Positions 49,309 through 51,972 of a stretch of 64,000 nt of DNA are shown one piece after another. The notes below the pieces were generated by a model. That model worked only from the letters and a program-made list of their open reading frames with translations, was not told where the DNA came from and searched no databases. The translations under genes were made by a program, and so were the position numbers. The number at the start of each line of letters is the position of its first letter. Positions within the stretch are counted from its first letter, which is position 1. The DNA is from Prosthecobacter algae (GTDB lineage Bacteria > Verrucomicrobiota > Verrucomicrobiia > Verrucomicrobiales > Verrucomicrobiaceae): the NCBI RefSeq assembly GCF_039542385.1, contig NZ_BAABIA010000001.1, forward strand, positions 124,001 through 188,000, written 5' to 3'.

Positions 49309-51972
49309 TCACTGCATCATCGCCTGCGGGGTGTCTTCCTGGAAGACAAAGGGCCGCAGCTCCGCCAGTCGCGGGGCCTGCATTTGCGGGTCTTCATCCA
49401 GGGTCTTTTCTGCGAGTTGGCGCGCCAGCCGCACCAGACGGGTATCTGCCAGCAGCTCGGCGAATTTCAGCGGTGCTTGCCCGCTTTGCGCCTTGCCCAG
49501 CACATCACCCGGCCCCCGGCGTTTCAGGTCTTCCTCTGAGATGCGAAAGCCATCCGTGGTCTCTTCCATGATGGCCAGGCGGGATTTCGCCTCCTCATCT
49601 TTATCCTTCACAAAGAGCACGCAATAAGAGGTGTGCTCACCACGGCCAATGCGGCCGCGCAACTGATGCAACTGCGCGAGGCCAAACCGCTCGGCATTGT
49701 GAATGTACATCACCGTGGCATTCGGCACATCTACCCCCACCTCGATGACGGTGGTGGAGACCAGCACATCCAGCTTGCCAGCGCGGAAGTCCCGCATCAC
49801 CAGCTCTTTCTCCTCGCCACTGAGTTTCCCATGCAGTAGGCCTACCTGGAAGTGTGGTAAAAGTTTTGTCCACTCCTCGTGGCCTTTTTTGGCCGCCGTG
49901 GCATCCAGCTTTTCAGACTCTTCAATGAGTGGGTACACCAGGTAGCCTTGGCGGCCTTCTTCCAGTTGCTCCTTCAGAAATTTCGCCGCTTCCTTTTGCT
50001 TCGTGGCCGGGCGCACTTTGGTGATGATCTTGCCGCGCTCTTTGGGTCGCTCATCAATGGTGGAGACATCCAAGTCCCCATAGATCGTCAAGGTGAGGGT
50101 GCGGGGAATGGGGGTGGCGGTCATCACCAGCACATCCGGCGTGTTCCCCTTTTGAATCAAACGCGCGCGCTGGGCCACGCCAAATTTGTGCTGCTCATCA
50201 ATCACCACCAAACCCAGGTTCCGCACCAGTTCCTCGTCGTGCAGCAGCGCATGGGTGCCAATGACGATTTCGGGTCCTTTTTTACATGGAGCGCACGCGT
50301 CTCGCGTGCTGAGTTCTGCGTCCCGCGGAACTCCGTCCAAAGGAGGCCATAACCACTCATACTCCTGCGCATGAGTGACGAGGCCTTCCTCACGAGGATT
50401 GCTAACGATGTACCCGAAGGTCTCTTGCAGGTCTGCCTCAGAACGGATCAGCCTGTCAAAGGTCTCCTTTTCCCAAACACGCGCATCTTCCCATCCCAGT
50501 TTCAGGATAGCTTTCGAGCTAAAAGATTTGATGGAGTGCAGCAGTTCACTGAGTGGATAAAACACAGGATCACCTGTTTCTGGGTCGCGATTTTTCACCC
50601 CAGGTTCTAAGAGCAAATGCACGTGATCAGGCATCACGCAGGCCGCATACAGTTGATAGCGCTGACCATGAAAATGCAGCGCAGCCTCCAGGGCGAGTTT
50701 GCGAGCCTCCGGTGGCAAGGGCCTTCTCAAGGCCGTTGTAAACGTCAGAAAGTATTTCCCCCAGGGACGCTCGAAGTGTGGGAGGCGTCGTTTGGCATAG
50801 TGGACCTCGCGGGCGGCCTTGAGAACGGTTTCCCGCGAGACGCGTGAAACTGCACGCGGGACGCGTGCGCTCCATAGCTCAGTCCCCCCATCCTCGGCTC
50901 GCGTCCCCGTGCGCAGGGAGACATTCAGTCCCAGCGGCTCCAGCCACTTGCGCGCGGTGAGGAAATGTTGCTCGGCCAGGATCTGCGTGGGGGCCATCAT
51001 GGCGGCTTGTTTGCCCGCCTCCACAGCGCCCAGCATCGCAGCAAAAGCCACCACCGTTTTGCCACTGCCCACATCCCCGTGCAGGAGGCGATTCATCGGC
51101 GCGTTGCTGGCCATGTCGCGTTGGATTTCCTCCAGCGACCGCTTTTGTGCGCCCGTCATTTGAAAGGGCAGGGAAGCCTCGAACTCCTGTGCCAGAGGGC
51201 CGGCTGCATGCGCGTGACCGCCGGATTCTAACACTGCGCGCCGCCGCCGCACCACCCGCAGTTGATAGCCATAAAACTCCTCGAGGGCCAGGTAACGACG
51301 GGCCTTCTCCAGGTACTCCATCGTCTCGGTGAAATGCACCGCCTTGATGGCCCGCGCGCGGCTCCAGCCGGCGAACTCTCCCTGCTGGCTCGGGGGCGGT
51401 AAAAGATCGCGGGTAAAGTCATCGCCCAGGGCCTGGATGACATGCCAGGTCGCCGTGCGCAGCGTCTTCTGGGTCACGCCTGATTTCAGCCGATAAACAG
51501 GCGTGATGCGGCCGCTGTGGATGCGGGTGGTTTCCTCTTCATCGCCCAAGACCTCATACTCGGGGTGATCCATCAGCAGGCGATCCTTCGATTCCTTCAC
51601 CTTGCCGTAGATGATCAGCTCCTGGCCTTCCGCGATGGCCCGGCTCATGAACGGCATGTTCCACCAGCGCAGCGTCAGCAGCCTACCCATGGCCGCGCCG
51701 CCGATGGGCTCTACCTGCGCCTCAAACAGCCCCGCCCCACGCCGCGCACCAAAGTACTTGTTCCCCGTCTTTGTCACCAGCACCTGGTAGCAGGCAGGCA
51801 GCTCGCTGACCTGAAAGGTGGCCCCCTCCATCTGCCGCCGATCTTCATGGCGAAACGGCAGCCAGTTCACGATCTCCCCCACCGTCAGCACTTGCTCCTT
51901 GGCCAGTGCCTTCACCACCCGTGAGGGCAGGCCGGGAACATCTGAAAGGGAGGCGTCTAGAGCGAGGGGCAT
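49309..51972 (-). CDS. recG: ATP-dependent DNA helicase RecG carrying an in-frame transposase insertion
   Basis: The ATG at 51972 (MPLALDASLSDVPGLPSRVVKAL) gives 887 residues. Without residues 367-562 the length is 691, normal for RecG, which rewinds stalled forks and branch-migrates Holliday junctions. The wedge domain (about 1-180), Walker A GDVGSGKT (299-306), DEQH (592-595), TATPIPRTL, and C-terminal LRGRIGRGEH and LKRRGPGDVLG are all intact. The inserted 196 residues form a REP-associated tyrosine transposase domain and sit in the first helicase lobe, between motifs Ia and II, where RecG normally has a short linker before EIVIGTHAL. The reading frame is unbroken. Whether this RecG is active is unknown. 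Confidence 0.93.
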   Translation of the reverse strand: MPLALDASLSDVPGLPSRVVKALAKEQVLTVGEIVNWLPFRHEDRRQMEGATFQVSELPACYQVLVTKTGNKYFGARRGAGLFEAQVEPIGGAAMGRLLTLRWWNMPFMSRAIAEGQELIIYGKVKESKDRLLMDHPEYEVLGDEEETTRIHSGRITPVYRLKSGVTQKTLRTATWHVIQALGDDFTRDLLPPPSQQGEFAGWSRARAIKAVHFTETMEYLEKARRYLALEEFYGYQLRVVRRRRAVLESGGHAHAAGPLAQEFEASLPFQMTGAQKRSLEEIQRDMASNAPMNRLLHGDVGSGKTVVAFAAMLGAVEAGKQAAMMAPTQILAEQHFLTARKWLEPLGLNVSLRTGTRAEDGGTELWSARVPRAVSRVSRETVLKAAREVHYAKRRLPHFERPWGKYFLTFTTALRRPLPPEARKLALEAALHFHGQRYQLYAACVMPDHVHLLLEPGVKNRDPETGDPVFYPLSELLHSIKSFSSKAILKLGWEDARVWEKETFDRLIRSEADLQETFGYIVSNPREEGLVTHAQEYEWLWPPLDGVPRDAELSTRDACAPCKKGPEIVIGTHALLHDEELVRNLGLVVIDEQHKFGVAQRARLIQKGNTPDVLVMTATPIPRTLTLTIYGDLDVSTIDERPKERGKIITKVRPATKQKEAAKFLKEQLEEGRQGYLVYPLIEESEKLDATAAKKGHEEWTKLLPHFQVGLLHGKLSGEEKELVMRDFRAGKLDVLVSTTVIEVGVDVPNATVMYIHNAERFGLAQLHQLRGRIGRGEHTSYCVLFVKDKDEEAKSRLAIMEETTDGFRISEEDLKRRGPGDVLGKAQSGQAPLKFAELLADTRLVRLARQLAEKTLDEDPQMQAPRLAELRPFVFQEDTPQAMMQ
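50293..50333. repeat. REP-like hairpin pair at the 3' (recG sense) end of the element
   Basis: Two adjacent hairpins: GCACGCG-TCT-CGCGTGC (50293-50309) and GAGTTCTGCG-TCC-CGCGGAACTC (50311-50333, one G-T pair). Three-base loops and GC stems are typical of REP units recognised by RAYT proteins. Confidence 0.75.
50828..50868. repeat. REP-like hairpin pair at the 5' (recG sense) end of the element
   Basis: Two adjacent hairpins: GTTTCCCGCG-AGA-CGCGTGAAAC (50828-50850, one mismatch) and GCACGCG-GGA-CGCGTGC (50852-50868). They mirror the pair at the other end in order and loop type, so the element is bounded by inverted REP pairs. Confidence 0.75.

Follow-up and report, generated by a model that had tools for sequence, protein, structure and literature searches.

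A RAYT transposase with REP ends read in frame within recG of Prosthecobacter algae, and its relatives embedded in other core genes

Inverted REPs on both sides are described as a constant of RAYT transposases (PMC2817692). REPs have also been reported in frame within genes, many of them for DNA repair and tRNA synthetases, and that report gives Opitutus terrae (Verrucomicrobia) as the richest in GTAG-type REPs (PMC3733652). The Rickettsia palindromic elements (RPEs) are in-frame palindromic inserts (PMC10969869), and REPs are noted in frame inside tnpAREP genes of subclass 2.4 in a 2018 survey of HUH proteins (PMC6006769). That survey excluded 'a few unexpectedly long proteins', which it took to be fusions or mistakes of annotation. 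The long persistence of single-copy RAYTs and REPINs has been modelled (PMC8049555). Searches of the open-licence literature yielded no description of a complete RAYT lying inside recG, alaS or another gene.

We describe here a RAYT in such a position. The window, by which we mean the whole 64,000-nucleotide stretch that was analysed, contains a recG frame on the minus strand of 956 codons from stop to stop, which encodes 887 residues from a likely ATG at 51972 (recG with the RAYT insert, 49309–51972). The RecG wedge, DEAD, Helicase_C and RecG_dom3_C domains flank the insert, and NCBIfam RecG models match the frame in two stretches with the REP_Tyr_transpos model (NF047646) in between. This last match has an E value of 3.9e-20 and 72.2 bits against a curated cut-off of 80, which is exceeded by the relatives L136 (87.2 bits) and L142 (125.5 bits). 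The Pfam Y1_Tnp match to the insert is marginal (E 0.0075, 16.8 bits; cut-off 23), and no intein family is found among the Pfam hits of the window protein at E ≤ 1. The only other recG match in the genome (39%) is to the helicase part and lies in a frame of 1168 codons, which is probably Mfd.

The embedded REP–RAYT–REP unit occupies 50286–50875 on the minus strand, as are all features given below, and BLAST finds one complete copy of it in its own genome, where three other RAYTs are 34–40% identical and lie in frames of 215–264 codons. The original prediction, of a RAYT with REP ends lying in frame in recG over exactly 196 codons, is confirmed: positions 50287–50874 make up 196 codons of the recG frame, translated to 196 residues without a stop, with both the HUH and the tyrosine motifs. 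The inverted ends that it described, with one mismatch, are present, the outer 24 bases of the unit ends showing one difference by eye, but the length of 23 bases fell short, as the unit extends one base further on each side. The inverted arms (50286–50336 and 50825–50875) are 51 nt each and 78% complementary. Each is a REP pair that is read in the recG frame, as had been predicted for the ends of the element. The pair at the recG-upstream end (50825–50875) is translated as (W)SARVPRAVSRVSRETV and that at the recG-downstream end (50286–50336) as ...RDAELSTRDACAP, and the terminal bases of both recur elsewhere in the genome. The REP ends of the window start ATGGAGCGC, with GGAG where a GTAG head is expected; GGGTAG can be read in some relatives (L138, L147, L148 and L151). 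Since the REP head in Stenotrophomonas is given as GT(A/G)G in PMC2817692, a GTAG head is no rule for all RAYTs.

The HUH motif (H84-V85-H86 of the query protein P0001, in MPDHVH) is encoded at 50617–50625 and the catalytic tyrosine (Y155, in the motif YIVSNP) at 50410–50412; both histidines and the tyrosine are invariant in the inserts of nine Prosthecobacter species. Among the features by which a RAYT is known, the window unit has the HUH and YxxxNP motifs, two inverted REPs as flanks and a TnpAREP fold, but it has no open reading frame of its own and is coded in that of recG.

An AlphaFold2 model of the 887-residue chain (32 sequences) has a mean pLDDT of 74.7 and a pTM of 0.58, a value at which the placement of the domains is unsure. 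Its best match in the PDB is RecG (1gm5; E 5.8e-39). The RAYT part has a pLDDT of about 58–87 and lies between two stretches with pLDDT below 50, which include REP-encoded residues. These are predicted to be disordered linkers: residues 357–401 before the RAYT domain (50770–50904), with the first REP pair, and residues 541–565 after it (50278–50352), with the second. When the RAYT is modelled alone its pLDDT is 90.5 and the top PDB match is 4er8, TnpAREP with a REP hairpin (E 1.6e-6, TM 0.58/0.54); a profile search also matched TnpAREP (E 9.6e-7). These models predict that the RAYT folds as a separate domain within the RecG chain.

The RAYT core used for comparisons between species (50308–50790; 161 codons from RRLPHFERPW) is free of indels in the nine species, and all 36 of their pairs align without gaps. 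Its dN/dS (NG86) is 0.02–0.24 where dS is not saturated, and that of recG outside the insert is 0.03–0.30 where finite. From the first residue of the insert to the start of the core there is no in-frame ATG, GTG or TTG in any of the nine genus copies; in three of them a TTG follows, two codons inside the core. The RAYT domain would therefore be translated as part of RecG, barring initiation at an unusual start codon. A knock-out of recG, one of the outcomes originally considered, finds no support, as relaxed selection is not seen in the recG genes of the nine bearers and the genome has no other match than the 39% one in the probable Mfd. The other outcome, a RecG–transposase chimera, is the one that fits best, with purifying selection on both the RecG flanks and the RAYT and with no start codon before the core. 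RecG with the insert probably stays functional. In other hosts the dN/dS of the RAYT is 0.04–0.13 in 12 of 14 pairs, the remaining two being saturated; the pair L137/L178 was left out of the comparison of host C-terminal parts, as one contig ends early.

Our sample of the genus consists of 48 genomes, among them that of the window (G000). RAYTs at 62–100% identity are found in nine, always in a recG frame of 796–956 codons, and there are six weaker matches (38–45%) in frames of 207–378 codons. The recG loop could be read in 46 genomes (47 recG frames), the gene being cut before the loop in G022 and G009 giving no recG match. Nine of these loops have the full insert, one (G034) has an in-frame REP scar and 36 are empty, with varied sequence; the flanks of the insert also differ somewhat in each bearer. 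Removal of the insert leaves a protein of 691 residues, as had been stated, but the loops of empty relatives differ in both sequence and length, so that this need not reproduce the exact empty site.

On the recG tree of the 46 genomes the presence of the insert requires eight changes, at least seven of them forced by starred branches, and a topology that unites the insert bearers and the scar in a single clade is rejected (p-AU 1.9e-5). The RAYTs of the nine bearers form one starred clade (97), next to copies in alaS of Opitutaceae. The insert-bearing recG genes are thus not one clade, yet their RAYTs are. In pairs within the genus, dS of the RAYT is mostly as large as that of recG or larger, so that there is no sign of a recent transfer from one species to another. 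Two points were missed at first: the insert is not recent, and it does not represent a single event. A recent single insertion is ruled out by the nine species and by dS, and one conserved ancestral insertion that was merely inherited is insufficient, since the recG genes of the bearers are not one clade. The possibility that RecG always carries the domain as an old insertion, which was to have counted against the original prediction, holds in part: the insertion is old and has been kept in nine species, but it is absent from 36 of the 46 readable recG genes. The history may have involved an old insertion with repeated loss, exchange of alleles by recombination, or repeated gain; many separate deletions are disfavoured by empty loops that are alike across one half of the genus. 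The recG gene of G016 and the empty gene of G029 are about 89–100% identical on both sides of the loop region, and their identity falls to 51–75% over some 30 codons to the left of the insert. This pattern would fit a gain with a co-converted flank and a loss in G029 with a rewritten flank alike.

At the level of the class, P0001 was compared with 384 genomes, drawn evenly, with at most eight first-look candidates scored per genome. There were 43 class matches in 35 genomes at E ≤ 1e-22, and all 43 lie in open frames of 698–1513 codons. Outside the genus the class matches number 41, in 39 frames, two of which have two RAYTs. Clustering with the RAYT masked places these 39 frames as alaS (20), recG (11), thrS (5) and metH (3), and NCBIfam confirmed the host identity on two representatives of each. 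The frames with two RAYTs are an alaS frame of 1398 codons with one at each of two alaS sites (L146:4309-8502) and a metH frame in which the first is cut by the contig end (L142:3-3692). An ispG frame (L163:8328-11000, plus strand) carries a more distant, weaker RAYT, and the same genome also has a RAYT in alaS. In one alaS locus (L172:4072-8054) a stop separates the N-terminal piece of alaS from the RAYT; this is either a broken gene or a sequencing error. Many of the genomes used are metagenome bins.

A wider profile search of named genomes gave 263 confirmed relatives, of which the best 80 were considered. We counted a RAYT as embedded if at least 120 residues precede and at least 60 follow the core; 37 of the best 80 of the 263 are embedded by this rule of length, and the others are free-standing, cut by contigs or short of the rule. 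Further hosts, identified with NCBIfam on one representative each and by clustering for the rest, are priA in Limisphaerales and valS, ileS, purH and rdgB in Planctomycetota, again among the best 80 of 263. A tie to the replication fork, through RecG and PriA, was considered as the reason for embedding and rejected, as most hosts are not fork proteins. For L225, L230 and L246 NCBIfam gave no host family at 1e-8, and for L224 it gave one only C-terminally. The cyanobacterial and acidobacterial relatives among the best 80 of 263 are short free-standing frames. In a delta-proteobacterium a RAYT lies in a DUF1156 protein (L214:3837-7310) that resembles an anti-phage family (194.6 bits; cut-off 1000).

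A RAYT tree was calculated by a quick search from 131 rows (nine duplicates having been dropped) and 149 columns, with SH-aLRT support. It has a clade of 72 (SH-aLRT 84) in which 70 RAYTs are embedded and two free-standing, the hosts being alaS (33), recG (23), metH (7) and thrS (7); RAYTs outside this clade are mostly free-standing. The host labels require 26 changes on the tree, compared with a mean of 76 when shuffled, and starred branches force at least three changes for alaS, four for recG, two for thrS and two for metH. The host genes have therefore been long retained yet switched several times. In genome G412 the RAYTs of L147 (in alaS) and L138 (in thrS) belong to one starred group of four, as would result from a move within the genome. 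The two free-standing members, L184:4878-5555 and L192:4899-5525, have similar neighbour genes, apparently of one pilus- or secretion-like operon. L192 is without the catalytic tyrosine and L184 is altered beside both motifs. Of the 85 embedded rows, 82 retain the full set of catalytic H, H and Y (one has no first histidine, one no tyrosine and one is cut): the first histidine is present in 84, the second in all 85 and the tyrosine in 83, with a serine in one row and a contig end in the other.

When the hosts were aligned after the RAYTs had been taken out, the junctions were found to recur. In alaS, 27 of 33 are at one place and four at a second, with two unplaced at contig ends. All 17 recG junctions examined (15 from other families, G000 and G016) are in one loop, all seven in thrS are at one place, and those of metH are at two places (four and three of seven). 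Junctions also recur at one site in valS (4/4), priA (2/2) and purH (2/2). Exact inverted repeats of at least 12 nt join the flanks of 68 of 81 embedded copies (median 17) and of 20 of 30 free copies, and are present in none of 102 control pairs taken 640–900 bp out. The alaS loop is permissive with or without a RAYT. In the genus it has unrelated in-frame stretches of 53–112 residues in G000, G004, G008, G011 and G012; the alaS gene of the window's own genome (L260, G000:C2:637900-641900) has about 112 such residues (336 bp in frame) at the loop that elsewhere bears RAYTs. By eye these stretches, including the 336 bp, are not REP-like.

A search of the window's own genome for the element end, as originally proposed, gave 23 places that match the 22-base end with at most two mismatches, two of which are the ends of the element itself; they often form opposed pairs that span about 150 bp. 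REP matches beyond the element's own two are present in all nine insert genomes (1–29, median 4), and of the 39 genomes without the insert 22 have no REP matches (median 0) and 17 have some (Mann–Whitney p 4e-4, with kinship ignored). G018 has 17 matches to the REP end, an empty recG loop and no P0001-like RAYT at E ≤ 1e-15, and G034, which has the scar, has nine matches. In-frame REPINs in other genes of the window's genome were considered and rejected: of six frames that span REP sites and were compared with Pfam, one (L013) has domains, and these lie beyond the REP part.

In our view, the best explanation of the data as a whole, with a probability of roughly 0.75, is that a RAYT lineage persists as an unspliced, intein-like passenger domain in core proteins. 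On this view the element is a REPtron without a gene of its own: recG carries it in frame, and it forms part of the RecG polypeptide as an added domain, placed at a surface loop that separates helicase motifs and tethered by two flexible linkers, which its REP ends encode. This domain would cut and join single-stranded REPs and so spread short REP pairs (REPINs) in the genome; the embedded RAYT probably still acts on REPs. Its persistence would rest on two things: an important gene supplies its expression, and an imprecise deletion or a frameshift in it would in most cases disrupt the host gene too. In this it would resemble an intein or homing element, but without splicing. The species with only a REP scar and the many empty loops suggest that it is sometimes lost or exchanged. 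A fuller version, that the lineage occupies a few docking loops (recG, alaS, thrS and metH, with valS, ileS, purH and rdgB in other phyla), moves between them within genomes, spreads REPINs and is shielded from deletion by the host gene, so that its members are in effect inteins run by an HUH enzyme without splicing, is offered tentatively, at a little under even odds. Against the passenger explanation stand the REPs of 17 of the 39 genomes without the insert, above all those of G018, the stop in L172, the free-standing L184 and L192, the low pTM of the whole-chain model, the many metagenome bins among the genomes, and the bearers' recG genes, which unlike their RAYTs are not one clade.

Homing, in which the element would invade alleles where that loop is empty, through recombination or its own HUH activity as inteins and homing introns do, would account for the patchy presence on the recG tree (eight changes, at least seven forced, one clade rejected) and for the divergent flank of about 30 codons between G016 and G029. 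We nevertheless regard it as doubtful, since in the pairs compared the RAYTs have mostly diverged at least as much as recG, which gives no sign of recent transfer among species, and the G016 pattern equally fits a loss in G029. It is also unlikely that RAYT units land anywhere and survive, with no adaptation to in-frame life, wherever a permissive loop of an expressed gene tolerates them. The unrelated inserts of 53–112 residues in the alaS loop are what such tolerance would give, as are the in-frame REPs in repair genes of Opitutus and others (PMC3733652), but it leaves unexplained why one clade has 70 of its 72 members embedded when RAYTs outside it are mostly free-standing, and why a handful of genes and sites are used again.

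Domestication, in which the RAYT domain now serves its host (in RecG by cutting single strands or binding hairpins where forks stall) and is no longer mobile, we consider quite improbable. Most hosts are tRNA synthetases or metabolic enzymes, to which a DNA nuclease would be of no use; 36 of 46 recG genes in the genus do without the domain; and 68 of 81 copies still have REP ends that form inverted repeats. These points have to be set against a long, vertical-looking persistence under purifying selection and the presence of two fork enzymes, RecG and PriA, among the hosts. An assembly chimera or annotation error, which is how overlong proteins were treated in the 2018 survey (PMC6006769), is close to refuted, as the same junction region is found within contigs of separately assembled species with 60–99% RAYT identity.

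If the passenger explanation is correct, staying in the mature protein would add to inteins and introns a third means by which a selfish element can endure in core genes, and it would bear on how single-copy RAYTs and REPINs persist for so long. Surveys that drop transposases as 'too long' (PMC6006769) will miss embedded RAYTs. The inserts also mark, in nature, those loops of RecG, AlaRS, ThrRS and MetH that can carry domains of 200 residues.

Compared with in-frame REPs and RPEs, which encode about 20–82 residues and no transposase, the window unit encodes a whole conserved RAYT and is not a short palindromic insert. In subclass 2.4 (PMC6006769) a REP enters a RAYT gene with the frame kept; here the nesting is the reverse, REP–RAYT–REP within a host gene. 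With the RAYT/TnpAREP proteins and REPtrons of E. coli (yafM), Stenotrophomonas and Pseudomonas the unit shares the Y1 HUH core and the flanking inverted REPs, and, as in REPtrons, its genome has further REPs and REP pairs and its best fold match is 4er8. Those RAYTs are described as having open reading frames of their own, whereas here the frame of a core enzyme runs through REPs and RAYT alike, an arrangement that characterizes an entire clade. Inteins and homing introns are in-frame passengers at recurring sites in conserved proteins, with patchy presence and a nuclease core, and the window element resembles them in its in-frame position, recurring sites, patchy presence and nuclease core. 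We know of no splicing motifs in the insert, and in contrast to inteins no splicing is proposed for it, so that the host must tolerate the added domain. The window element is accordingly classed as a RAYT on account of its anatomy and fold, but one with a new way of life, akin in logic to an intein without splicing.
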